Below the pieces are notes generated by a model. It was not told the origin of the DNA. It was given only the letters and a program-made list of their open reading frames with translations, and did no database searches. Positions 24,733 to 44,422 of a DNA stretch of 64,000 nucleotides are shown here, piece after piece. The first letter of the stretch is position 1; each line of letters starts with the position of its first letter. The position numbers were made by a program, and so were the translations under genes. The DNA comes from Desulfobulbaceae bacterium (GTDB lineage Bacteria > Desulfobacterota > Desulfobulbia > Desulfobulbales > VMSU01): the NCBI GenBank assembly GCA_028718985.1, contig JAQUKQ010000005.1:1-64000 (forward strand), in the 5' to 3' direction.

Positions 24733-25521
24733 TCAACCAAACCGGCCGGTAATGTAATCTTCCGTCTCTTTGCGAACCGGCGAGGTAAACACCCTTTTGG
24801 TGAGACCAAACTCTACTAATTCACCGATATAGAAATAGGCGGTGAAATCAGAGACCCGGGCCGCTTGCTGCATGTTATGGGTAACGATAATGATCGTATA
24901 ATCGCCTTGCAGTTCCCTGATCAGTTCTTCAATACGTGACGTTGAGCGTGGGTCAAGGGCGGAGCAGGGTTCGTCCATCAAAATGATTTCCGGTGATACT
25001 GCAATGGCCCGGGCAATGCAGAGCCGCTGCATCTGGCCGCCGGACATACCCATGGCCGATTCGTGCAACCTGTCTTTCATCTCATCCCACAAGGCGGCGC
25101 GCTTCAAACTCTTCTCAACGGTTTCATCCAGCAGATTCTTGTCGCGAACGCCTGCGATCCGGAGGCCATAGATCACGTTTTCATAAATCGATTTAGGGAA
25201 GGGATTCCATTTTTGAAAGACCATCCCCACCCGGCGTCGCAGCTCGATGACATCCACCGAATTATCATAGATATCCTGGTCATCAATGGTAATTTCGCCC
25301 GAGATGCGGATCGACTCGATCAGGTCATTCATCCGGTTGAAACAGCGTATGAAGGTCGATTTGCCGCAGCCGGAAGGCCCGATCAAGGCCGTCACCTTCT
25401 TTCTGGGGATACTCATGGTGATGCCGCGCAGGGCCTCACTGTCTCCATAATAAAGGTGAAGATCCTTCACCTCAACAATGGCATCAGTGATTTGCATGAT
25501 AGGAGTGGCTTGTGCTGTCAT
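24733..25521 (-). CDS. pstB: Phosphate ABC transporter ATP-binding protein
   Basis: About 262 residues. Walker A is [11 protein letters not shown], the ABC signature is MSGGQMQRL (Met instead of Leu at its first position), Walker B is [13 protein letters not shown], and the switch His is in IIVTHNM. The PstB-specific [20 protein letters not shown] is present. It powers phosphate import through PstCA. I chose ATG 25521 ([10 protein letters not shown]); ATG 25560 is possible. A 190-base gap separates it from pstA, with the 12-base palindrome GCTATATATAGC at 25640-25651. Confidence 0.95.
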
Positions 25522-25713: not shown

Positions 25714-27312
25714 TCAGACATCGGCGATGGCATATCGTGCTCTCATCTTATTGCGAAGATAAATGGCAACACTGCACATGCTAAGCACAATGAGGATCAA
25801 CAACAGCGTGGTCACATAGACCATGGGCTTGGCCGCTTCGACATTGGGGGACTGGAAGCCGATGTCATAGATATGGAAACCAAGATGCATAAACTTGCGG
25901 TTAAGATGGAAATAGGGAAACTGGCCGTCAATCGGTAACGATGGGGCAAGCTTCACGACGCCTGTAATCATCAGAGGCGCGACTTCGCCAGCCGCTCGGG
26001 CCATGGCCAGGATAAATCCGGTCATGATCCCAGGGGAAGCCATGGGCAGCAGCAGTCTGGTCAAGGTCTGGAATCTGGTGGCGCCAAGGGCAAGCGACCC
26101 TTCCCGGATCGACGGCGGAATCGAGCCCAAGGCCTCTTCAGTGGCGACAATAACCACTGGCACGGTGAGCAGGCCTAGGGTCAGGCTGGCCCACAGGATA
26201 CCACCGGTGCCAAAGGTGGGGGTGGGAAGACGTTCAGGAAAAAAGAACTGATCCAGCGCTCCGCCGATGCCGTAGATAAAAAAGCCAAGGCCAAAGATGC
26301 CGTAGACGATTGAAGGAATACCCGCCAGGTTGTTGACCGCGATGCGGACAATCTTGACCGTGACACCGGGGTGGGCGTACTCGCGCAGATAGATGCCGGT
26401 GATGACGCCCAGAGGAAAGGAGAGCAGGCTCATCAGTAAGACCAGCATCACCGTGCCGAAGATGGCAGGGAAAAGGCCACCCTCCGTGTTTGATTCCCGA
26501 GGGTCTGCAATAAACAGCTCGACAAGCTTGTCGGCGTAATGGCGAATTTTTGCAAACAGCCCCATCCTGTTCGGCTGATAGAGACGGACCATATCGGCAA
26601 GGCGCACCGTACTTTCCTTGCCATCGGCTGTCTTGAAAATCGCGTAATAGGCAGCCAGCTCTTCGGTGTTCTGTTTGCCGCCATCAACCAGGGTCGCAAA
26701 CTGCGTCTTCAGTTTCGTTTCGGCATCAACAAGCGTGATTATCCGCTTGTCTTTTTCGTCCATGTGCTGATAGCGGTAGCCAGCAAGCTTCTGGTTGACT
26801 TTTTCGAGGGCCAGATTAAGAGCGCCGATTTTTCGGGAGATCTGCTGTTTCGTCATAAGCAGCGGTTGCAGATTATGGCGAGCCTTGCCCAAGGCCGAGA
26901 CAAGCGTGCCCTGCCCTTCGGCAACCGTTATCTCTGGACTATGCACCTCGGCAAGCGTTCCATAAAAATTTCCGTTCTCTTGCCGTTCAATGACGTAGAG
27001 ATCTGCAGGATAGCTGCGCGAACGGATGTCGGGCTCACTGATCCAGGTGAAATCGAGTCCGTTGATCTCACGGTTGCCGATCTTGAGTTGCAGGCGCGAC
27101 ACATTGTTGCCGTCTTTTTCTTCCTTAGTGATTTCGCCAAGGACCACTCGCCCATCATTTAAGGAAAGTTGCACCAGTTTTTGTGGCCAAAAAACCCCGA
27201 TGCCGTTGGCGATCACCACATACAGCAGCAAGACCGTCATGGTGATAATGATCGACAGGGTCATCCCCGTTGCCCAAACAAAAGGCTCTCCGCGTCGCAC
27301 AAATTTTTTCAT
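25714..27312 (-). CDS. pstA: Phosphate ABC transporter permease PstA, extended form
   Basis: 532 residues, against about 290 for E. coli PstA. TM1 (about 14-38) is followed by a periplasmic insert of roughly 235 residues with a helical, charged stretch, then the permease domain from about 280 with PLGVITGIYLREYA, NNLAGIPSIVYGIFGLGFF, the EAA-like loop ATEEALGSIPPSIREGSLALGATRFQ (split here as EEALGSIP and EGSLALGAT), and GEVAPLMITG. It pairs with PstC to form the channel. The insert is shared in kind with the enlarged PstC, so both probably make a periplasmic collar. Confidence 0.93.
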   Translation of the reverse strand: MKKFVRRGEPFVWATGMTLSIIITMTVLLLYVVIANGIGVFWPQKLVQLSLNDGRVVLGEITKEEKDGNNVSRLQLKIGNREINGLDFTWISEPDIRSRSYPADLYVIERQENGNFYGTLAEVHSPEITVAEGQGTLVSALGKARHNLQPLLMTKQQISRKIGALNLALEKVNQKLAGYRYQHMDEKDKRIITLVDAETKLKTQFATLVDGGKQNTEELAAYYAIFKTADGKESTVRLADMVRLYQPNRMGLFAKIRHYADKLVELFIADPRESNTEGGLFPAIFGTVMLVLLMSLLSFPLGVITGIYLREYAHPGVTVKIVRIAVNNLAGIPSIVYGIFGLGFFIYGIGGALDQFFFPERLPTPTFGTGGILWASLTLGLLTVPVVIVATEEALGSIPPSIREGSLALGATRFQTLTRLLLPMASPGIMTGFILAMARAAGEVAPLMITGVVKLAPSLPIDGQFPYFHLNRKFMHLGFHIYDIGFQSPNVEAAKPMVYVTTLLLILIVLSMCSVAIYLRNKMRARYAIADV

Positions 27313-27339
27313 AGTTATCGCCGTTGCAAGTGATGTCCT

Positions 27340-29559
27340 TTAATAGCGTCCATATTTCTTGCGTAGATGCTCGCGAATGATTTCAGCACCGGTATTCAGG
27401 ACAAAAGTCAGAGCGAACAGGACGGTGGCACAAAGGAAAAGAACTCGGTAGAGGGTCCCGCCAAAAGGGGCTTCGGGTATTTCGACGGCAATGTTGGCAG
27501 ACAGGGTCCGCATGCCGTTGAAGATCGACCAGTCCATGATTGGCGTGTTGCCGGTAGCCATAAGCACGACCATGGTTTCACCTACCGCCCGGCCGAAGCC
27601 GATAATCATCGCAGCAAAGATCCCGGGACTGGCCGAGGGCAGGATCACGCGCCATACCGTCTGCCAGCGACTGGCCCCCAAGGCCAGCGAGGCGGCAGTC
27701 AGGCTTGGCGGGATGTTGGAAATGGCGTCCTCGGTGATGGAAAAAATGATCGGGATAACACAGATGCCCAGGCCAAAGGCGATAATGATGCAGTTTCGCT
27801 GGTCATAACGCATCCCCATGTCTTGATAGAGCCAGAGCTTGAAATTGCCGTGAAACAAAAGCGACTCCAGGCCAGGCGCAAGGCGAACGGCAAGCCAACC
27901 GCCAATAAACAAGACCGGCAGCATGAACAGAAATTCGTAGCCGCTCAAGAAATTGACAAAACGCCTGTTGCGGTAGAACGGCTGAATACAGACCATGACC
28001 AAGGTAAAGAGCAGCGGCACAACGAAGAGGGCGACAACTAAAGAGAAAAGGGAACGCTCAACAATTGGAGCCAGCCAGAGGGCGATGAGAAAACCGATGA
28101 CCACTGACGGTACGGAGGCCATGACCTCGATGATCGGCTTGATGCTTTTGCGGAACTTAGCGGAGGTGAACTGACTGGTGTAGACCGCCCCGAAGATGGC
28201 AAGCGGAATCGAAAAAAGCATGGCGTACAAGGTACCCTTCATGGTGCCGAAGATCAAGGGGATCAGGCTCAACTTCGGTTCGGCGTCATCGGACTGCGAA
28301 GACGATTGCCAGACATATTCAGGCTTGTTGTAGCCCTCATACCAGACCTTGCCAAACAGTGTCTTGAGGCTTGCCTCCGGGTGCGGGTTGTCAATCTGCC
28401 AGATGTGGATGAAGCGTTTGCTGTCAAGCGCGATAAGGGCGTTGTCCTTTTGCGAAATGCCAAACACCTGATAGGCGTCAGGGATAGTGAAGAGGTGGTT
28501 TTCACTGGTCATGTGATCGGCATGAATGATCCCGGCCTCGGAGATGGAGTAGACAGTCTTGCTCCGCCGCGAGGAGAGGATGGTGCTGACTGCTGCAGCA
28601 TGGGGCTCAAGAACGTGAATCATCTGCATCTTCTTGATGGCGTTATTCGCCTCCGCCCTCACCTGCATCCAGGTCTGCACCGTGCCGCTCTTTGAGCCGA
28701 CCACCAGGGACTGTCCACCAAAGACGAGGCCAAGAGAGGCGATGGGGTCGGAGTTTTCGGTGGCGGCGAAGGTGTCAGTCTTTTTGACTGCGTCATTGTC
28801 GGCCAGATCCCAACGCACAACATAGCCGTTATCCGTCCCGGCGTAGAGGGCAAGACCAGAGTCATCAAGCGCAAGGGTGCTGACTTTGCCCGGCAAGGTC
28901 TCTTCGATTCTGACACTGAAATTTTCCGTCGTCTGATTGTCTAGAAAATCGGTGGTTGTGACTTCATGATTGATGGTCAGGGTGTTGTCGGTCAAGAGAT
29001 CGATGCGGGAGAAACGATTGTCCGCCGACAAGCGGACATAGCTTTGGGCGAGACGCTCCGGCTCGGCAAGAGCTGGCCAGAGTTTGATGGTGCGGAACGA
29101 AGGTTCAATCGTACGCTTGCCCTCGGTATCGAATTTGGGCTGATAGCGCACTTCAATCATCGACAGGCTGCTGTCCTGCCAGAGGATGTTGTAGAACGAA
29201 TTCTTATACTGCTCGATCTGTCTGATTTGGCTCTTGCCCTGCCCCTGAATGGTGGCTTGCGTGATTACCGCCCCGCTCCTGGCATCCAAGAAGGTAATCG
29301 TGCCCTCCTGATCGATGAGGTGCAAGGCCTCCCCATAGCTGTCAATGCCGATAGCTAAAGGCGTGCCGCTGACCTGAGCACTCAGGGCGACTTTCTGTGC
29401 ATCGGTAATTTTTGAGGGGGAGAGAAGGGGCAGGGTAACTTTGACGATCAAGGCCAGGATGGCGAAGACACAGACAATCACCATGATGCCACAGACCTGG
29501 ATGAAGGTTTTGGCAATCTTGTCTTTTCGTCGGACTCTCTGAAGAAATTTATTATCCAT
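27340..29559 (-). CDS. pstC: Phosphate ABC transporter permease PstC, with beta-propeller insert
   Basis: 739 residues, against about 320 for E. coli PstC. TM1 is at about 25-48. A long periplasmic region (about 55-430) has repeated beta-strand blocks such as LALDDSGLALYAGTDNGYVVRWDL and SLGLVFGGQSLVVGSKSGTVQTW (quoted in part), which look like WD40-type propeller blades. The permease domain follows, with FGAVYTSQFTSA, EVMASVPSVVIGF, the EAA loop IPPSLTAASLALGASRWQ and GRAVGETMVVLMATGN. ATG at 29559 is preferred over the longer frame from 29613. It lies 28 bases before pstA, so the two are coupled. Confidence 0.93.
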   Translation of the reverse strand: MDNKFLQRVRRKDKIAKTFIQVCGIMVIVCVFAILALIVKVTLPLLSPSKITDAQKVALSAQVSGTPLAIGIDSYGEALHLIDQEGTITFLDARSGAVITQATIQGQGKSQIRQIEQYKNSFYNILWQDSSLSMIEVRYQPKFDTEGKRTIEPSFRTIKLWPALAEPERLAQSYVRLSADNRFSRIDLLTDNTLTINHEVTTTDFLDNQTTENFSVRIEETLPGKVSTLALDDSGLALYAGTDNGYVVRWDLADNDAVKKTDTFAATENSDPIASLGLVFGGQSLVVGSKSGTVQTWMQVRAEANNAIKKMQMIHVLEPHAAAVSTILSSRRSKTVYSISEAGIIHADHMTSENHLFTIPDAYQVFGISQKDNALIALDSKRFIHIWQIDNPHPEASLKTLFGKVWYEGYNKPEYVWQSSSQSDDAEPKLSLIPLIFGTMKGTLYAMLFSIPLAIFGAVYTSQFTSAKFRKSIKPIIEVMASVPSVVIGFLIALWLAPIVERSLFSLVVALFVVPLLFTLVMVCIQPFYRNRRFVNFLSGYEFLFMLPVLFIGGWLAVRLAPGLESLLFHGNFKLWLYQDMGMRYDQRNCIIIAFGLGICVIPIIFSITEDAISNIPPSLTAASLALGASRWQTVWRVILPSASPGIFAAMIIGFGRAVGETMVVLMATGNTPIMDWSIFNGMRTLSANIAVEIPEAPFGGTLYRVLFLCATVLFALTFVLNTGAEIIREHLRKKYGRY

Positions 29560-29583
29560 GTACCTGTGGCTCGCAGTAACATC

Positions 29584-29621
29584 AAGAGGAGGTGACAGCG
29601 GAAAGGCTGGCACCTCCTCTT
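29584..29621 (-). promoter_or_regulatory. Intercistronic hairpin between pstS and pstC
   Basis: AAGAGGAGGTG (29584-29594) and CACCTCCTCTT (29611-29621) form a perfect 11-bp stem with a 16-base loop. There is no T run after it in the pst direction. A hairpin here would protect the pstS message or reduce readthrough, giving more PstS than permease. Confidence 0.6.
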
Positions 29622-33528: not shown

Positions 33529-34509
33529 TTAGGCTCTCTTCTTTCTGCGGGCACCGATGAACCCAGCGAGCCCGGTACCCATGAGAAGCATAGTGGCAGG
33601 CTCTGGGACTGGGGCCGTCTCCACCGTGAACATAACGCCATTGTTATAAAAATGGCAGTCCGGATCTATGCCAAGACCAAAGGATCCATCCCAGGCATAC
33701 TCTAACAATTTATCAATCGAAGCCTGATTCAGGTGGTAAATCAGATCAAAACCTCTAGGACTACCACCAAATTCGTCATGCCAGGGGTTGAGAGGGTCAC
33801 CGTTCACACCTTGAATCCGAACGCTTTCCGTACCCCAATCCACGTCCAGTCGGCTTTGCTGATCAGCACGCTCCCAAAGGTTCTCGCTTAGTTGAAAGCC
33901 AGCGTTCAAGGTTTTCGTATCCTGAATAAATTTCGTCTCGGTTACAATATAGCCACTTGGAGGATTTACGTTCATTCCAGTACTTGTGGATATGGTTGTT
34001 TTGGACAGATTGTAGGTATATTTTTGACTCCCTGCGTCGTACGTGTAGCTCTCCACAGTCCAACCGGCAGGAGCGGCGTACACCCCTGGTATCATTTTGC
34101 TCGTACGACTTTGCAAAGTCGTTGTCGATTTCGTATAGGTATACAGGTTATGCCCCTGAGGGACACCATTGATCGTCACAGGGACGACCTCTCTTCCTGG
34201 CAAAGGCGGGGGCTCGGCGAGCAGAAATGAGTTTAGTTGATCGTTTTCTTCATGAACCCAGTTGTATATATTTTTGAAGGTCAGAGTTGCGGAGACGATT
34301 TCATACCCTTTAACCAGTTCTATGCCCAAGCTTGTGGCGTCACTATTGGCCAAGGACCACCCATAATAAAAACCATGCTCAAGATCCATCATGTCAGTTT
34401 GATTGCCACGCGAATCATTTGAATTGAAGGTGAACGTTGTCGCGTGTGCGGTCAGACAGGAGAGTGCGATTGACGCAACCACTATTGTGCAGCTAATTGT
34501 TTTTTTCAT
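33529..34509 (-). CDS. PEP-CTERM sorted secreted protein
   Basis: About 326 residues. An N-terminal Sec signal peptide (MKKTISCTIVVASIALSC..., ending near THA) precedes a beta-rich body. The C terminus is a classical PEP-CTERM tail, VPEPATMLLMGTGLAGFIGA followed by basic RRKKRA, which directs the protein to an exosortase and the cell surface or exopolysaccharide matrix. The body has no family I recognise. ATG 34509 is chosen because GAGG lies nine bases before it; ATG 34518 sits directly on that site. No exosortase gene is in the window. Confidence 0.85.
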   Translation of the reverse strand: MKKTISCTIVVASIALSCLTAHATTFTFNSNDSRGNQTDMMDLEHGFYYGWSLANSDATSLGIELVKGYEIVSATLTFKNIYNWVHEENDQLNSFLLAEPPPLPGREVVPVTINGVPQGHNLYTYTKSTTTLQSRTSKMIPGVYAAPAGWTVESYTYDAGSQKYTYNLSKTTISTSTGMNVNPPSGYIVTETKFIQDTKTLNAGFQLSENLWERADQQSRLDVDWGTESVRIQGVNGDPLNPWHDEFGGSPRGFDLIYHLNQASIDKLLEYAWDGSFGLGIDPDCHFYNNGVMFTVETAPVPEPATMLLMGTGLAGFIGARRKKRA

Positions 34510-34518
34510 TTCTGACAT

Positions 34519-35146: not shown

Positions 35147-38100
35147 TTACTGCTGCGTCACAGTGAAGGTCGAAGCCGTATTGTACACCCGTGGGGTGTA
35201 TGTTGTGCCCCCGGGCCTATAATCAAGCTCCATCAACAACCGATAAGTCGCCGGGATCGTACCACTCCCCGTGTAGGTAGGGGCAATGTTAACCGTTGCA
35301 CCAGTCCCTGAGGTCACTACTGAAGAGGTCATGAGGAGAGTCTTATTCCCTGCACTCCCTGCCGGGTTGTACGAGTAGATATTGCATCTCCACTGATCGC
35401 TTGAGTTATAGCCTCGGATCGAGAAACTCGCCGCCGACACCGCCGTAATCGTCTTGGCCGTTGCGTACACCGGGCTATAGGTCTTCAGCAAGGTCACCCA
35501 TGTGCCATTAGTCATGCCAGAGGTTGGTCGATAGCTCCAGCCCGTATTCACTGCGGCACTTCCCAACATGGATCTAACCCCAGGTGCTGTGGACGGCAGA
35601 TCCGCGGTATAGTTAGTACTCCCGTCAATCCCGACTGCTGTCGCTGTGCCTGGGGCAATATAGTAAGTCACATTAACAGGTGTGACCGCAGCAGGCGTGC
35701 CACTGCCAACAGCACCAGTGGAGGCATTACCAACTGCGTCGTAGGCACACACCCGATACGAGTACTGCGTACCGTTGGTAAGACTGGTATGCGTGGTGGT
35801 CAAGGCTGTTCCGAGATAAACGGAAGTGCCAGTCGTACAAGTCGGTGCCGTGGCCCCGGTCAAGAAGCGAACATCATAGGTATTGGTCGTTGCCAAGCCA
35901 CTATTTGCATCCGTCGAGGCAGTCCAAGACAGGCCATTCTGGGCATTGCCAGCCGTCACAGTCACAGTGCCGGTCGTTGGTGGCGTGGCATCAACCGTAA
36001 GCGACACTGCTATGCCTGTCCCCGTGCCTCCCGTCGAGGTGCCACGCATGTTTATGGTCAAAGAACCCGTCAAAGCCGTCGGTGTCGCCGTGCATGTCCA
36101 CGGTGATGCACTTCCACTCAGCGTGCCCGCTACCCAGGTCGTACCGTTTGTGGTGTATTGACAAGCGGTTACTGCTGACTGGGCATCGGTGATGGTCGCC
36201 GTAATCGTAGGAGCAGCTTTGGTGTACGTGCCGCTCGTCGGGGTCACGGTAACGGTGCTGATCGTCGGGGGGGTTGTATCTGTGACAAGATTCGGTGTTC
36301 CGGCGCCATAGGCACCGGTCGAGACGTTGTTGGCCGCATCATAGGCACAGACCCGATACGAATACTGGGTTCCGTTGGTCAGACCAGTGTGCGAAGTAGT
36401 CAAAGCCGTACCAAGGTAAACCGAGGTGCCGGTAAGAGGCGAGCAGGTTGGGGCCGTAACACCGGTCAAGAACCGAACATCATAGGTGTTGGTTGCTCGT
36501 AAGCCGCCAGCATCTGTTGCCGCCGTCCATGCCAGGCTATTTTGTGTATTGCCTGCCGTCACCGTTAAGACGCCGTCTGTCGGAGGCGTTGTATCGGCGA
36601 CTGGCGCCGCTGCGACAATCCGGTATCCGGTTACGTTGAAGCCGTTAGCATTCGAGGTATTAACGTTAAGTGTCGTGCCATTGCCGGGATATCCTGTCAC
36701 CGTTGCTGTACACGACGGAGAAGTACCCGCCATCACCACACTGCTGGTGCCATACACCGCAGTCAAAGTTGAACAACCGCCGGCATTGCTGGTGCTGGCC
36801 ACTACCGCTACCGTAGTGGTCCCAGGCGTGGCACTCAAGACCTGAACATTGTCTGAGGCAGGAGGGGCACCGGTGACCGGGGCAATGCTGGCAAATACCG
36901 GCATCGAACGGGTCGTGGTGTTCAACAGCGTGATCGGCGAATTGGCCACGAACGCCGTAACAGTCGTAGGCACCAAAACCCGGGTAAAGGCTGGAGTGTC
37001 AAAGGCTTTGCTATTAAATGAAACCCTATCCTTGCCGCTTCCATCACATCGATACGATTGCGATCTCCCTGTCACAGAATCAGTAGGTGGAATACCAAAA
37101 TTCGGGGCAAAGATGTTGAATCCACCAATCAGGGACTGTGGAGCCGTAGCGGTTGTGGCATTTTTTGATCTGCCCGCTGCAAAGTGTGCCAAGTCACCAG
37201 AGGTTGTGGTATTGCAGCTCGACCTGGTCTGGAGCTTGCCGGCAGTGGCACTCGCCGCTTGGTTATAGAATGTCCAGGCTGTGGCACCAAAACGACTTGG
37301 GATAGCGTGCCACAAAGAGATCTGTGCTGCAGCCGGAACCTTGGTGCTACCAACCATATGACAACTCAAGCAGATTCCGTAGTTATTGATCCGAGAACCG
37401 GTCATAGGGATCGTGTGCTGTATGCTCCGCGTCCAGTCAGCCTTGAAGTCTGCGTAAGAGGCCCGCGTATATTTGGTCACCGTCATATTGGTGCCAGTAA
37501 AGGCCACATGACAATCGATACAGGCCATCTGCGTTGGACGAGCCTGGGTCAAGCCGGCAAGAGTCCCATTATCACCAGGTGCGGTTGTACTCCAACTTGG
37601 TCTTGGATCGGCATGACAGAATTCGCATTGTCCAACACTGGCCCTAGGGCTGGCATGATGAATGATTGCCCTGGTTGCTGAAGTCGGTGTCGTGGTCGCC
37701 ACCGTATGGCAAACATAACAGGCGCCGCCACCATTCGTACCGCCAATGGTACCGCCGTTCGGCAACGTGCCAGTGCCGTTGACACCTTTTTTATTAGTGA
37801 AGTTTACCAGAATGCCACGGTAATTGGCATCAAAGGCATGGCAGGTTCGGCAAGAGTCATGAATTGCGCCATCGGTAAGCGACACCGGCATGCCGGTCGT
37901 CGAACCAAAGGTGCCGGTGTGACAAGTTGTGCAGGCTGTGGTGGTCTGGACGGTGGCACTGTGGTTCGGCAAGGCATTGAGATCTGCTGTGCTACTTGTG
38001 TGGCAGTGGACGCAATCGTTGTTTGCCGCATATTGTGAACGGTGATGGATATAGGTGATTGAATAGGTCGTTGCAGGGTGACAGGTCAGGCACGTAATCC

Positions 38101-41100
38101 CCGTATGCGGTGCCGCACCAACCCCTAGCAGGGCATTACCATTGGCATTGGCACCAACCTTGGTCGTTCCGGTACCACCGCTTGCCGAGGTATGGCAGAG
38201 GAGGCAATTATTCTTGTGGATACCAACGACCACCCCGCTAGCCGGCACAGTGTGACAAACCGTACAAACCGCATCAGTCGTGGCGAAATGGGTGGCATCA
38301 TGACCGCCATGCGTAGCAGGCGTCTTCTTACTCCAATGACAGGCCAGGCAGGCCGTTGGGTTCGTATTGGCCGCAATAACATTCTGCACCGTCTCAGTTG
38401 GCACACTGGGGTTGCCAGTCAAACGGGTGGCATTGTGGCATAGGGCACAGTCACTCTTATGCTCGATGAAAATGGATGCCCAAGTGCTGAGGTTGGCTCC
38501 AGCGTCATTATGGCACGCACTACAGCTCGTACCGGGCGCGGCTTGGGCAAGATCTGTAGCCTGTAACGACACTAAATGAGGCGTGTGAGTATGAACAGAG
38601 AAAGCGGTATAGGTGGTGTGGCAGGTAACACACTCACCACCTGCGGCATGACCGATAGCGCTCCCCTTCAGTGCGCCATTGGTCGCCGTATTGTGACAGG
38701 TCTGACAGGTATTCGTCGCATGAACCTGACCGATGGCCACAAACGGAGCCGTCGTCGCGCTATGACAAGCAGTACAATTGGCAGTTGGCGGTGTAGCGGC
38801 TACGTTCACTTTCACTGAGTTGATATGACTGTGAATATGACTGTTGAAATAGGTTGTATGGCAAGTCTGACAGCTCTCGCCAGCCACCTTGCCAATAGCA
38901 CTGCCAATCCGCAGGAAAGTAGTCGCACTGTGACAGGTTGTGCAACCCAACGGAGCGTGGGTCTGACCCGTCAAAACATACGGAGCCGTGGTCGCGGTCG
39001 TATGACAGCTGATACACAGCGGCACCGTTACCATGCTGTGAGTATGGACATGGGCATTGGGATAGGTCGTATGACAGGTCGAACACGTCGCACCTACCGT
39101 CTGCCCAACAGCGTGACCGATCAAGGCCCCAGTGGTCGCACTGTGACACGTTGCACAGCCAAGAATGGCATGGGCCTGTCCACCCGTCACGTACGGAGCT
39201 GCGGAGGCAGTGTGACAGTTGAGACACTTTGCAATGGTCCCCATGCTATGGCTGTGCGCATGATTGGGGAAGTAAGTGGCGTGGCAGGCCGTACAGTTAC
39301 CGCCAGGGGACGCCATGGTCGGGGCCTTTCCATACGCAGCCTTCAGTGGTCCAAGGTTGGTATGACACGTGGTGCAGGCATCATGAACCTTGTTGCCGGG
39401 GGTTGCATCGACTGGCACTCCCGTTGCGTTACCAGCTGTTGCCGTATGACACGTGGTACATTTCGTGTCTATCGCTACCGAGCTGGCATGATTCCCCTGG
39501 TGGCTGGCCACATTATGACAAGTCAGGGTACAGTTGCCACTCACAGCATTAGGCGTGCTATGGTGGATGAAGCCCTTAGGATAGAGGATCGTGTCGTGAC
39601 AGACCGTACACACTGCAGTCTTTGAGGTGCCCGCCAAGATGGCATTGCCATCGGTGCCAGCCTTCCGTGCACCACCACCGGCAGCATTGACGTGACAGAG
39701 AGAGCACGTATTATGGTGGATGTTCAGAACTACGTCGGTATTAACGCCGGAGTTATGACAACCGGTAGCCCCACAGCTACTCTGCGTCCCGGTGTCCCAG
39801 GCAAAATCAGTTGCCGCATGTCCACCGTGCGTGGCAGGTGTCTTCTTGTTCCAGTGACAGGCCAAACAGCCGACCTGGACCTGGGCATTGATAATATCCT
39901 CTACCGTCTCAGTTGGCGCTGTTGGATTGCCGGTCAATCGTGTTGCACTATGACAGGTAGAGCACAAACCTCTATGCAACGTGGCGATATCGCTCCATGC
40001 CGTCACCGTGTGACAGTCAGAACACTGTGTTCCAGGAGCCGCCTGGGCCAAGTCAGTCGCCGTAATAGCCACCTTATGGGCAACAGAGCTATGACCAGTG
40101 GCATAAGCGGTATGGCAGGTGACACACTCTCCACCGGAGAGGTGTCCTGCAGCACTGCCAATTAACGAACCATTCAAGGTACTATGACAGGTGTTGCAAC
40201 CAAGGGTGGCATGCGTCTGACCCACAGCAACGAATGGTGAGGTAATGGCTGTATCATGGCAGGTTGCCGTACAGTTGACCGCCTCTGGAGTGATTGCCGT
40301 ATTCTTCTTCACCGAATTGCTATGATCATGACCATGGGCACCGAAGTAGGCAGCGTGACAGGTTTGACAACTTGCACCAGCCGTCTTTCCGGCAGCACTG
40401 CCAATCCGCAGACCAGTGACGGCACTGTGGCAGGTTTGGCACCCAAGGCGGGCATGGGTCTTCTTGCCAGTGACCACATTGGTCATATACGGTGCAGCAG
40501 TATCCGTATGGCAACTGATACAGAGGGCCACCGTGTTCATGACATGACTACGGGTGTGACCGTTGAAGTAGGTGGCATGACAGATGTTGCAGTCAGCCCC
40601 TGATGTCTTGCCAACGGCAGAACCAATCAAGACGCCAGTTAAAGCGCTGTGGCAAGTCTGGCAGGCAAGAGTGGCATGTGCCTGACCGGTTGTGGCAAAA
40701 GGTGCAGCAGCTGCCACATGGCAGTTGAGGCAAAGGGCCACGGTATTCATGCTGTGGCTTCGCAAATGGTTAGAGAAATAGTTTCCATGACATGCCGAAC
40801 AGTTGCCACCAGGCGACGCCATGGACATCGCGGTTCCGTATGCGGCCTGCAGTGATCCGTTCACCTTATGACAAGTCGTGCAGGCATCATGAACCTTATT
40901 GCCTGGCGCCCCATCTACCGGAACTCCCGCCTCTGTACCAGCCGTTGCGGTATGACAAGAGGAACATTTGCTGTCGCTTGCGACAAAAGAAGTATGGTTG
41001 CCGCCATGGGGCGCCCCAATGTGACAGAACGTACAATCTCCAGAAGTAGCGTGCGCAGTGCTATGATGTATCGCCCCTGTAGGATAGGTCGTGAGGCTAT

Positions 41101-43972
41101 GGCAGTCGGTACAGGTACTGGTCACCGTCGCGCCCAAGGCAGAACCCTTAACTCCGGCTTTCCGGGTGTAGTTGCCAGTACCAGGGCTGACATGGCAAAG
41201 GGTGCATTTGCTCTGATGAATGTCAATGACCACAGACTTGCTGTTCGGTCCGTGACAATCAACACAGGTACCTGACCAACCGAAAGTCGTGGCATCATGG
41301 GCGCCATGAGTTGCCGGTGCCGTCTTATTACGGTGACAAGAGAGACAAGAGGTCGGATTGCCTCTGGCTGCGATGATATTTGCCACCGTCTCAGTCGGAG
41401 CATTGGCATTACCCGTCAAACGGGTTGCGCTGTGACAGGTCGAACACGCATTCAGATGGAGAGCCAAGATATTGCTCCACGTGTTCACCGTATGACAGTT
41501 CGAACAAGGCTGCAAGTCATCCTGTCCAAGATCCGCTGGCTGAATTGCCACCGTATGGGTATGACTGTGCCGAGCAAAATACCCCGGGCCATGGCAAGCC
41601 GAGCACTCTCCGCCCCCATCGTTAGGTTGGTTCACCCCATTGACCAAGTCACCGTTTGGCATGGCCACCACGTAGGGCAGGCCAACGGCGGCAACCGTTC
41701 GCAACTCACCGTTACCCGCCACATCATGGCAGGCAGCACAATCACGATGCAATTTAGGATCAGTCGTACTGATCTGAATGCCAAAGCCTGGACCAGGCAT
41801 TCCGGCTGTCGCACTATGACAACTATCCGTGCAGCCTTCGGTGCTAAGCTTCACAACATTCGTGTGATCAGGATGTTTGTGATCCTTAAACAGATGGATG
41901 GCATGACAATCAGTACAAACAACCGGGGCACCCTTACCAAGAGGGGTCACCATCTGACTGACAATGCCACGGGTCAGGTCGGCAACCTTCACTAGGCCAA
42001 TAGTGAAGTCGCCAATAATGCCCTTACTGATCGTGTGGCATGTAGTACAGGCCTCATGCACCATTGGATCGTTCGGATCGGTGGTCGCGCCATTATTCAA
42101 ACCGACCTGCCGATAGTGGCACCAGTTACACTGTGGCGTATTGCCAACCGTATTCGTGTGGTTATGATTCAGATGCACAATACCAGGATCAGGCCCATGG
42201 CAACTAAAACAAGTTACAGGCAGATCCAGGTCCGGCTTACTGCCAGTACCATGCCCTGGCATATAGCCCGGAACCATGTGTCCTGGATTAGTCACCTGCA
42301 CAGTATTCTTTAGGGTGCCATCATTTTTGTGACAGACCGTACAACTATCATGAACCCGGGGGTTATCGACTCCAGGGCCATCGATAATAGCGCCGGTAGT
42401 GGTCCCGTGGGTCGAGTAATCAGTATTGGTGGAGGTATCCAGATGATGACATATCTCGCAACCATTAACCTTATTGGGTAGCGTCCCAGAGGTAACGGCC
42501 AAGACAATTTTGCTTGAATGGTCTGCCGCCTTAGTAAACGGCGTAGCGGCCATGCTGGCACTCTTGTGGCAATGAGTACAGTCACCGCTGGCGGCATAAT
42601 TGCCGATCGTGGCGATATGGTGAATTTGTGGCAGGGTGTTTTCGATATTGGACTTGGTGGATTTATCATGGCAGGTGGCGCAAGTAGCAGTTATGGTGGC
42701 CCCACTAGGGTCACCGTCAACTCCATTCAAGTTACTCACAGCGTTTACGCCAGTACTGCCAGCTACACGGAGAGCACCACCGCCTCCCGCATCGACGTGA
42801 CAGAGTACGCATTTATTACCATGGATGCCAGAAATAATTGCCTTGGTGCTATCGTGGCAAGTTGCACAGTTGATACTCACCACGTTGCCATCCGCCTTGA
42901 TGTAGCTGATCGGCGCCCAACCAAAATCCGTATCCGAGTGACCAGCCCCTTTGAAACCTGCCAGATGCGTGTGACAAGAGGTACAGGTCGAATTACCACC
43001 GAAAGTTGTATCTCCGACATAAACAGCATGGCTATCAGCGCCTGCCATGGGAGCACCAGTGTTTCTGAAGCGTGGCGAAAATGCAGGATCATTGCCGGTC
43101 GTCAGTGTATGGCAAACCTGACAAATGCCGTTTGGGGAGGTATTGACCGTATCCACAAAACCTCCGATCGGGGTAACAAACTTAACCTCACGGGATTCCC
43201 CAGTATACGGCACCTTCACAGATTTCTTGATTAACTGTCCATAGCTGAGCCCAAAGGTATCGGCAGTTGAAGAGTTGACCGGTAAAGGCCCTGACCCATC
43301 AGGATCAGTGTTCGGGACTACCAACGCTGCACTAAGTTTCCCCTTCACGACAATTTCAGTGGGAGAAGCTGAAAGTACCGTATATGTATTGGCATTGTCT
43401 GTTGTGTCCTGAGACAAAATGAGGCCTCGGTCGGCAACGCCAGTTTTCTTGGTCCAATTGTTGATGGGCCAATTAATGGCGTCCTCTTTAGTCAAGGCAG
43501 ACTGAATCGCTATAGTCGTCTGATCATAGACCGTACCATTGATAGTCACCGTGCCCAGTGTTATGCCGTTATTGGGTTTTGTGCGATCGATTTTCCCAAC
43601 AACGAGGAAGGCATCTGCACCCCATTCAAGTTGGCGCTGATAATGGGGGTCGTGGCAATCCGTACAGCCCACACCCCAACCACCTGTGCCATGGTAATTG
43701 TTGTCTGAACCTATTATTGATGAGGAATGGGTTTTGACGGCAAGAGATGACCCCGTCCCGTGGCAAGTCATGCAGACGGTATTAACTACTGTGGCATGAG
43801 TCGGCGACAGGCTCTGAGTGCTTGGCGAATACATCCACCATAATGAATAACTGTGACAGGTCGTGCAGGTTATTTTGTTTGTTTCATTGTGCGGCGCATC
43901 AGTTACAGATGCGTGCGCCGTCGCTGTCATCAGTAACACCACGATACACCACAGCAAGTTTAATCTCCTCAT
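35147..43972 (-). CDS. Giant secreted 69-heme cytochrome c with Ig/fibronectin-like tail
   Basis: 2941 residues. A Sec signal peptide (residues 1 to about 21, ending ATAHA) directs export. From residue 36 to about 2205 I count 69 heme-attachment motifs: 65 CxxCH, three CxxxCH (CTDSCH, CTATCH, CTLTCH) and one CxxxxCH (CGATGCH), roughly one per 31 residues, with many extra His available as sixth ligands. Most of this region is tandem copies of a 19-heme unit. The last 735 residues carry no heme motif and hold two fibronectin type III-like domains (LTVTAGNTQNSLAW and TVTAGNAQNGLSW), an Ig-like domain between them and a final beta-rich domain. ATG 43972 has GGGAG seven bases upstream. Such proteins conduct electrons outside the cell, for example to minerals, electrodes or partner cells. 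No porin or other cytochrome is beside it. The electron acceptor is unknown. Confidence 0.93.
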   Translation of the reverse strand: MRRLNLLWCIVVLLMTATAHASVTDAPHNETNKITCTTCHSYSLWWMYSPSTQSLSPTHATVVNTVCMTCHGTGSSLAVKTHSSSIIGSDNNYHGTGGWGVGCTDCHDPHYQRQLEWGADAFLVVGKIDRTKPNNGITLGTVTINGTVYDQTTIAIQSALTKEDAINWPINNWTKKTGVADRGLILSQDTTDNANTYTVLSASPTEIVVKGKLSAALVVPNTDPDGSGPLPVNSSTADTFGLSYGQLIKKSVKVPYTGESREVKFVTPIGGFVDTVNTSPNGICQVCHTLTTGNDPAFSPRFRNTGAPMAGADSHAVYVGDTTFGGNSTCTSCHTHLAGFKGAGHSDTDFGWAPISYIKADGNVVSINCATCHDSTKAIISGIHGNKCVLCHVDAGGGGALRVAGSTGVNAVSNLNGVDGDPSGATITATCATCHDKSTKSNIENTLPQIHHIATIGNYAASGDCTHCHKSASMAATPFTKAADHSSKIVLAVTSGTLPNKVNGCEICHHLDTSTNTDYSTHGTTTGAIIDGPGVDNPRVHDSCTVCHKNDGTLKNTVQVTNPGHMVPGYMPGHGTGSKPDLDLPVTCFSCHGPDPGIVHLNHNHTNTVGNTPQCNWCHYRQVGLNNGATTDPNDPMVHEACTTCHTISKGIIGDFTIGLVKVADLTRGIVSQMVTPLGKGAPVVCTDCHAIHLFKDHKHPDHTNVVKLSTEGCTDSCHSATAGMPGPGFGIQISTTDPKLHRDCAACHDVAGNGELRTVAAVGLPYVVAMPNGDLVNGVNQPNDGGGECSACHGPGYFARHSHTHTVAIQPADLGQDDLQPCSNCHTVNTWSNILALHLNACSTCHSATRLTGNANAPTETVANIIAARGNPTSCLSCHRNKTAPATHGAHDATTFGWSGTCVDCHGPNSKSVVIDIHQSKCTLCHVSPGTGNYTRKAGVKGSALGATVTSTCTDCHSLTTYPTGAIHHSTAHATSGDCTFCHIGAPHGGNHTSFVASDSKCSSCHTATAGTEAGVPVDGAPGNKVHDACTTCHKVNGSLQAAYGTAMSMASPGGNCSACHGNYFSNHLRSHSMNTVALCLNCHVAAAAPFATTGQAHATLACQTCHSALTGVLIGSAVGKTSGADCNICHATYFNGHTRSHVMNTVALCISCHTDTAAPYMTNVVTGKKTHARLGCQTCHSAVTGLRIGSAAGKTAGASCQTCHAAYFGAHGHDHSNSVKKNTAITPEAVNCTATCHDTAITSPFVAVGQTHATLGCNTCHSTLNGSLIGSAAGHLSGGECVTCHTAYATGHSSVAHKVAITATDLAQAAPGTQCSDCHTVTAWSDIATLHRGLCSTCHSATRLTGNPTAPTETVEDIINAQVQVGCLACHWNKKTPATHGGHAATDFAWDTGTQSSCGATGCHNSGVNTDVVLNIHHNTCSLCHVNAAGGGARKAGTDGNAILAGTSKTAVCTVCHDTILYPKGFIHHSTPNAVSGNCTLTCHNVASHQGNHASSVAIDTKCTTCHTATAGNATGVPVDATPGNKVHDACTTCHTNLGPLKAAYGKAPTMASPGGNCTACHATYFPNHAHSHSMGTIAKCLNCHTASAAPYVTGGQAHAILGCATCHSATTGALIGHAVGQTVGATCSTCHTTYPNAHVHTHSMVTVPLCISCHTTATTAPYVLTGQTHAPLGCTTCHSATTFLRIGSAIGKVAGESCQTCHTTYFNSHIHSHINSVKVNVAATPPTANCTACHSATTAPFVAIGQVHATNTCQTCHNTATNGALKGSAIGHAAGGECVTCHTTYTAFSVHTHTPHLVSLQATDLAQAAPGTSCSACHNDAGANLSTWASIFIEHKSDCALCHNATRLTGNPSVPTETVQNVIAANTNPTACLACHWSKKTPATHGGHDATHFATTDAVCTVCHTVPASGVVVGIHKNNCLLCHTSASGGTGTTKVGANANGNALLGVGAAPHTGITCLTCHPATTYSITYIHHRSQYAANNDCVHCHTSSTADLNALPNHSATVQTTTACTTCHTGTFGSTTGMPVSLTDGAIHDSCRTCHAFDANYRGILVNFTNKKGVNGTGTLPNGGTIGGTNGGGACYVCHTVATTTPTSATRAIIHHASPRASVGQCEFCHADPRPSWSTTAPGDNGTLAGLTQARPTQMACIDCHVAFTGTNMTVTKYTRASYADFKADWTRSIQHTIPMTGSRINNYGICLSCHMVGSTKVPAAAQISLWHAIPSRFGATAWTFYNQAASATAGKLQTRSSCNTTTSGDLAHFAAGRSKNATTATAPQSLIGGFNIFAPNFGIPPTDSVTGRSQSYRCDGSGKDRVSFNSKAFDTPAFTRVLVPTTVTAFVANSPITLLNTTTRSMPVFASIAPVTGAPPASDNVQVLSATPGTTTVAVVASTSNAGGCSTLTAVYGTSSVVMAGTSPSCTATVTGYPGNGTTLNVNTSNANGFNVTGYRIVAAAPVADTTPPTDGVLTVTAGNTQNSLAWTAATDAGGLRATNTYDVRFLTGVTAPTCSPLTGTSVYLGTALTTSHTGLTNGTQYSYRVCAYDAANNVSTGAYGAGTPNLVTDTTPPTISTVTVTPTSGTYTKAAPTITATITDAQSAVTACQYTTNGTTWVAGTLSGSASPWTCTATPTALTGSLTINMRGTSTGGTGTGIAVSLTVDATPPTTGTVTVTAGNAQNGLSWTASTDANSGLATTNTYDVRFLTGATAPTCTTGTSVYLGTALTTTHTSLTNGTQYSYRVCAYDAVGNASTGAVGSGTPAAVTPVNVTYYIAPGTATAVGIDGSTNYTADLPSTAPGVRSMLGSAAVNTGWSYRPTSGMTNGTWVTLLKTYSPVYATAKTITAVSAASFSIRGYNSSDQWRCNIYSYNPAGSAGNKTLLMTSSVVTSGTGATVNIAPTYTGSGTIPATYRLLMELDYRPGGTTYTPRVYNTASTFTVTQQ
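35690..36600 (-). repeat. Duplicated fibronectin-like domains in the cytochrome tail
   Basis: Two segments about 600 bases apart (near 36300-36600 and 35690-35990) encode almost the same domain, both with TNTYDVRFLTG and NGTQYSYRVCAYDA. A different Ig-like domain lies between them. This is a direct repeat at DNA level within the gene. Confidence 0.75.
38450..39964 (-). repeat. Second copy (B) of the 19-heme unit
   Basis: Starts at the CSTCH before SATRLTGN (39964) and runs 1515 bases (505 residues) to the next ATRLTGN copy. It holds motifs 39-57 in the same order as copy A, including CxxxxCH at motif 41 and CxxxCH at motif 44. A partial third copy follows from 38449, matches through about motif 65 and then diverges. 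Confidence 0.8.
39965..41446 (-). repeat. First copy (A) of the 19-heme unit
   Basis: Starts at the CSTCH before SATRLTGN (41446) and runs 1482 bases (494 residues). It holds motifs 20-38. Inside it, a three-heme block with GQAHATL, IGSAxGK and NTVALC repeats three times. The N-terminal region (motifs 6-19) is a more divergent relative of the same unit. Confidence 0.8.
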
Positions 43973-44422
43973 CGCAAATCTCCCATTTTTAACTTATTTA
44001 GTTAACATCTGGCTCCATACCATTTATTGTCTTGCTATTTGCGTAACCGTTCAGCAGCACCACATCTGCTTTGTCATCGGCCTGCTCATGTGCTGCTTAA
44101 CCATCACACTTCGCAGGCCTTTTCCGTGCACCTATGGCTCTGCCGACGGTTATAATTCTGAAGTTGAGCCACGTTTTTCCGTTCCTGGTGAACGATTACC
44201 TGTTTACTGCGTTCCTCTCTTTAGCGGTTAAACCGTCGGCCTGACGACATTGACACTCCCCAAGAAGATCACCGAGTACTGAATGCATTCACACCACGCC
44301 CCTGTCGAGCATGCGTGAAATTCCCCCAGCATCTTGAGGGAAACCACCCACAGTGATTCTATCACTCAATGAAAATTAAGGTTTTCCATTCCAATAAAGA
44401 ACATGAAAACTGAATAAAAATC

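Follow-up and report, generated by a model that had tools for sequence, protein, structure and literature searches.

Giant multiheme cytochromes have been described from both archaea and bacteria. Candidatus Methanoperedens manganireducens encodes a protein with 113 hemes (PMC7082337), a 69-heme archaeal protein is cited in the same paper, and an ANME-2c fosmid encodes a protein with 86 hemes, with 20–80 hemes in others (PMC9012536). Many of the giants of ANME-2/3 and Methanoperedens are fused to S-layer domains, and they have been proposed to function in extracellular electron transfer (PMC7082337, PMC9012536). In addition, 112 motifs have been counted in a Paludibaculum MAG (PMC11495043), and the high-molecular-weight cytochromes of Desulfuromonas acetexigens, which are expressed, have up to 86 motifs (PMC12133095).

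Here we analysed a 64-kb stretch of DNA (the window) from a draft genome of the Desulfobulbales (225 contigs, 93.7% complete) that contains a gene for a giant cytochrome with 69 heme-binding motifs. This order also includes cable bacteria. With 69 motifs the protein is large and equals the archaeal case, but lies below those with 86, 112 and 113 and is no record. Its sequence places it in a family of giant cytochromes in which a cap with DAPHN and YSLWW signatures is followed by a c7-type heme array.

Gene structure and neighbourhood

The frame runs on the minus strand from an ATG at position 43972 to a stop codon ending at position 35147, with 2941 codons and no internal stop (Table 1). The preliminary description had counted 65 CxxCH, 3 CxxxCH and 1 CxxxxCH motifs in these 2941 residues; our recount is identical, with the CxxxCH motifs at residues 714, 1234 and 1481, the CxxxxCH motif at residue 1400 and 69 distinct heme-histidine positions. 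The reported spacing of one motif per about 31 residues over 2170 residues also holds closely (2165 residues from the first to the last motif, one per ~32). When the residues of the protein were shuffled 200 times, CxxCH arose by chance with a mean of 0.4 and a maximum of 4.

Table 1 Features of the giant cytochrome gene and its product
Feature	Position in window	Strand	Basis
Multiheme cytochrome gene (2941 aa, 69 motifs)	35147..43972	-	ORF, motif count, Pfam
Ribosome-binding site GGGAG	43980..43984	-	7 nt before ATG, from sequence
Sec signal peptide, residues 1-21 (MRRLNLLWCIVVLLMTATAHA)	43910..43972	-	Read by eye
N-terminal cap module, residues 1-353, 5 motifs	42914..43972	-	Alignment A1
Heme-free insert in cap, residues 108-283	43124..43651	-	Gap of 181 residues from motif 3 to motif 4
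First heme array, residues 354-757, 12 motifs	41702..42913	-	Motif map
500-residue superrepeat copy A, residues 758-1251, 18 motifs	40220..41701	-	Repeat comparison
500-residue superrepeat copy B, residues 1252-1752, 19 motifs	38717..40219	-	Repeat comparison
Third superrepeat copy (partial, diverged) with end of heme region, residues 1753-2258; 15 motifs	37199..38716	-	Motif map
Heme-free tail, residues 2259-2941	35150..37198	-	Motif map
Second fn3-like copy, 73% aa identity to first	36293..36616	-	DNA repeat D3
Fibronectin type III domain, residues 2664-2750	35723..35983	-	Pfam PF00041, 4.1e-6
Perfect 22-bp hairpin 3' of stop codon	35071..35118	-	-43.7 kcal/mol

The N terminus (MRRLNLLWCIVVLLMTATAHA, followed by SVTDAPHN) has the hydrophobic core and, as judged by eye, the AxA-type cleavage site of the Sec signal peptide that had been proposed for it, supporting export of the protein across the inner membrane. 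The cysteine at position 9 lies within the hydrophobic core of the signal and the cleavage site has no lipobox; across the whole protein, no strongly hydrophobic 19-residue window was found outside the signal peptide. The calculated mass of the mature protein is 299 kDa, which would rise to near 340 kDa with 69 hemes. The ribosome-binding site, the signal peptide and the 3' hairpin, a likely terminator, together suggest that the gene probably forms a transcript of its own.

The gene is flanked by genes for a PEP-CTERM protein and a BaeS-like kinase and by pho/pst genes. No adjoining gene for an outer-membrane porin-cytochrome system was recognised, and there are no other heme-array genes elsewhere in the 64-kb window. 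A positional ortholog was sought in three other genomes (G001, G002 and G003), in which the orthologs of the flanking BaeS-like and PhoR-like kinases are on different contigs with no adjoining giant cytochrome. The PEP-CTERM sorting-domain protein lies directly downstream (33529-34518, minus strand) and has 17 matches in its own genome, most of which concern the sorting motif. The PstA- and PstC-like permeases encoded beside PstS (25714-29613, minus strand) are of unusual length, at 532 and 757 aa; permeases at the matching place in G002 and G003 have 312 and 317 aa.

Modular architecture and heme ligands

From the cap to the tail, motifs are distributed as 5, 12, 18, 19, 15 and 0. The cap, in which Pfam recognises heme families alone, carries three signatures that are kept in relatives (DAPHN...C..CHxYSLWWxYSP, FGLxYGQLI and ICQVCH). 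AlphaFold predicts the core of its insert (about residues 120-215) to be mostly beta, with a pLDDT of ~42-87 per ten-residue block over residues 121-220 and maxima at 121-160 and 201-210. Both the cap (mean pLDDT 46) and the superrepeat heme module (mean pLDDT 38) were predicted without hemes, and the heme chain is resolved in neither model. Structure searches with the cap returned no match at E ≤ 0.001 with Foldseek and none at Z ≥ 5 with VIA-align; similarity was scattered and confined to the beta insert. In the tail, which is probably adhesin-like, the fibronectin type III (fn3) domain scores 27.4 bits against a cut-off of 25. Residues 2205-2450 have homologs on contig C7 of the same genome and on contig C190 of G001, a sister genome of the same genus, and the last 192 residues have no match elsewhere among the loci retrieved for comparison.

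Profile searches and the selective retention of heme ligands both bear out the earlier identification of the protein as a multiheme c-type cytochrome. The Pfam family Cytochrome_C7 matches eight stretches (4.8e-59; 196.5 bits against a cut-off of 24.8), and Cytochrom_c3_2 and MtrC/MtrF domain II/IV also match, the similarity to MtrC-type heme domains reaching 1.4e-40 (PF22113). The superrepeat has profile matches to UndA (3e-11) and to 3ov0 (1.6e-9), which we take to be GSU1996, a c7-type multidomain chain, as well as to MtrC and MtrF. NCBIfam matches were all below family cut-offs, and the OmcA/MtrC decaheme family TIGR03507 was absent among the matches at E ≤ 0.001. Pfam found no S-layer domain, and the protein has no C-terminal membrane helix. 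The genome itself (93.7% complete) has four cytochrome-c-assembly loci and two dsrA loci, and no match to the MtrB/PioB porin (PF11854).

Between superrepeat copies A and B, amino acid identity is 59%, but 53 of 54 motif cysteines and histidines are kept, as are 19 of 22 other histidines, compared with 52% of the remaining residues; differences are about twice as frequent at third codon positions as at the other two. The heme region has no cysteine outside the motifs, and 95 non-motif histidines beside the 69 motif histidines. We read these conserved residues as marks of selection for heme attachment, and the non-motif histidines as probably selected for bis-His ligation. In a tree of superrepeats, in which branches are long, the copies from the window are unresolved inside a group from its own and the sister genome.

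A family of giant cytochromes

At E ≤ 0.001, the cap alignment (A1) had a match in 68 of the 258 genomes surveyed from the order; many of the matches were weak and close to that limit. Strong matches (E below 1e-50) came from the taxonomic family of the source organism and from a restricted number of others. Named relatives include Deltaproteobacteria and Desulfobacterales MAGs, some of whose isolate names suggest deep-sea sites, and Nitrospirae MAGs. A contig scan with the whole protein as query found no relative, whereas the cap alignment did; viral contigs held no relative and plasmids gave one weak match (23%, Emticicia). In a survey of 395 genomes of the phylum with the superrepeat profile, its own genome alone matched at E ≤ 1e-30, a strict threshold that misses the sister genome.

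Within its own genome, the protein has paralogs of 3369 aa with 32 motifs (C7), 1368 aa with 34 motifs (C72), at least 1494 aa with 45 motifs (C132, ending at a contig edge) and 1309 aa with 24 motifs (C1). A fifth, lipobox-bearing protein is of a different type (C9; 1012 aa, 42 motifs); it is encoded in a cluster with a peptidyl-prolyl isomerase, cytochromes with 5 and 7 motifs and a cytochrome-assembly gene (L019:2520-5558), and 26-motif proteins with starts that resemble it occur in several members of the order. In the flanking stretches examined, no porin gene was recognised beside any of these five. Across relatives of the window protein, motif number ranges from about 24 to at least 264, and heme number varies through module duplication.

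The largest members are in the sister genome. Its contig C22 encodes a complete protein of 4466 aa and 112 motifs. The next gene reaches the contig end, where an exact overlap of 27 nt joins it in-frame to contig C43 to give 4007 aa and, again, 112 motifs; a third giant with at least 31 motifs lies beyond, making a tandem array of three. Contig C176 (17,090 b) is one frame, open at both ends, of 5696 codons and at least 178 motifs. On contig C173 (31,041 b), a minus-strand frame from position 25409 to the contig end starts with a signal peptide and cap and has at least 8469 residues and at least 264 motifs (252 CxxCH, 10 CxxxCH and 2 CxxxxCH). Directly upstream of this gene (about 26.6-27.4 kb) are phage-type holin and endolysin genes, suggesting that a prophage or prophage remnant adjoins it.

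Internal repeats of the C173 gene are at most 76% identical, the longest exact repeat being 35 nt. C173 and C176 are separate contigs with 13 kb in common at 69% DNA identity; over 4377 aligned codons, all 462 motif residues are kept (462/462), as are 202 of 223 other histidines, against 66% elsewhere, and difference rates are 0.56 at third codon positions versus 0.22 and 0.17 at the others. That two diverged paralogs have the same plan is strong evidence for these giants being real genes. With motif counts of no fewer than 178 and 264, the C176 and C173 proteins lie above 113, the highest number that we found in the open-licence literature—a higher report elsewhere is possible—and 264 is more than twice that number. 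The window protein is ~26% identical to the C173 protein over the array, so that the two have the cap and the module type in common but are not close copies. We tentatively suggest that this genus holds the largest known cytochromes by heme count, in single chains of more than 8,400 residues that combine at least 264 sites in c7-type modules with the window protein's cap, and that could form a conductor of at least 100 nm or a very large electron store.

Function and alternative explanations

We consider, with moderate confidence, that the window protein is a modular, exported giant c-type cytochrome that serves as a conduit and reservoir for electrons outside the cell (or spanning the envelope). 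This reading rests on the 69 motifs, the 95 non-motif histidines and the lack of spare cysteines in the heme region; on the retention of motif residues between diverged copies and between the sister-genome giants; on the c7-, c3- and MtrC-type domains and the UndA, MtrC, MtrF and 3ov0 profile matches; and on the four cytochrome-c-assembly loci, the fn3 domain of the tail and a signal peptide unaccompanied by any other hydrophobic helix. There is also a precedent in OetF, a published cytochrome with fn3 domains that has been placed in an electron-transfer conduit of syntrophic sulfate reducers (PMC10553843). Counting against the reading are the lack of a recognised adjoining porin-cytochrome gene and of MtrB/PioB in the genome, and the low confidence of the structure models.

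The apoprotein would enter the periplasm by way of its Sec signal and there receive as many as 69 hemes from the cytochrome c maturation system; the retained histidines would be distal ligands, producing a low-spin bis-His array that passes electrons along the chain. The cap may form one end of the chain, for docking or assembly, and the fn3-containing tail may anchor the other to the matrix or to the surface of a partner, the protein being probably extracellular. The rise in known cytochrome filaments and polymers is 0.8-1.5 nm per heme; with a similar rise, 69 hemes could plausibly span roughly 50-100 nm, crossing the envelope and reaching beyond it. Duplication of c7-type modules would set the heme number, in which case reach and storage capacity evolve by duplication within the gene.

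The preliminary description had raised the concern that the frame might be a product of collapsed or expanded repeats. The assembly is a draft, and many paralogs have modules in common, which would favour the fusion or expansion of repeats from smaller genes. However, Tandem Repeats Finder detected no tandem array in the gene, its internal DNA repeats are only 71-80% identical and no exact repeat is longer than 20 nt, making collapse or expansion unlikely. The frame is single and intact with a ribosome-binding site and terminator, and paralogs that were assembled separately have the same plan of cap, array and tail; an artefact of any such kind is therefore highly improbable. A catalytic role, in which the array would feed a site in the cap for reduction of, for example, sulfur or nitrogen oxyanions, would fit the presence of dsrA and the weak similarity that the heme array shows in matches to chains of NrfH, NrfA and octaheme nitrite reductase. 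These matches track CxxCH spacing and fall far below curated cut-offs (21 bits against 134.2 for NrfH), and the protein has no CxxCK motif, so we regard an enzyme as very unlikely.

A further alternative is that distance is unimportant and that the protein is a periplasmic or surface capacitor, its hemes storing electrons when an acceptor is missing. The motif number, free to vary over the range given above, fits selection for capacity and not for a fixed distance, and capacitor-like storage has been proposed for heme-rich proteins (PMC11495043). Yet the fn3 domain and a Calx-beta-like sequence seen by eye in a sister protein suggest surface attachment, and a pure store would not need the conserved cap and tail; storage as the sole role thus seems somewhat unlikely. 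The window protein is a member of a family in which module duplication tunes the heme number. If loaded with heme, the C176 and C173 proteins of the sister genome, with their 178 and 264 motifs as minimum counts, would surpass the 113 and 112 of the literature and would make it possible to test what length a single-chain heme conductor can reach, how so many hemes are matured in a cell, and whether chains of this kind carry electrons or store them.

Comparison with known systems

Like the giants of ANME-2/3 and Methanoperedens, which by description have a similar or larger heme number and extra domains, the window protein is a single chain; unlike them, it is bacterial and has neither an S-layer domain nor a C-terminal membrane helix. 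The giants of Desulfuromonas acetexigens, also compared by description, are likewise bacterial and from the Desulfobacterota. Similarity to MtrC, OmcA and UndA lies in the heme domains, but these outer-membrane cytochromes have 10-11 motifs as against 69 in the window protein, which has no lipobox at its cleavage site and no MtrB in its genome. The GSU1996-type c7 polymer, or ‘periplasmic nanowire’, resembles the window protein in having serial c7-type modules in one chain; the 3ov0 chain is 318 residues long with presumably 12 hemes, whereas the window protein extends to 69 motifs and has, in addition, an fn3-containing tail and a cap bearing a beta insert.
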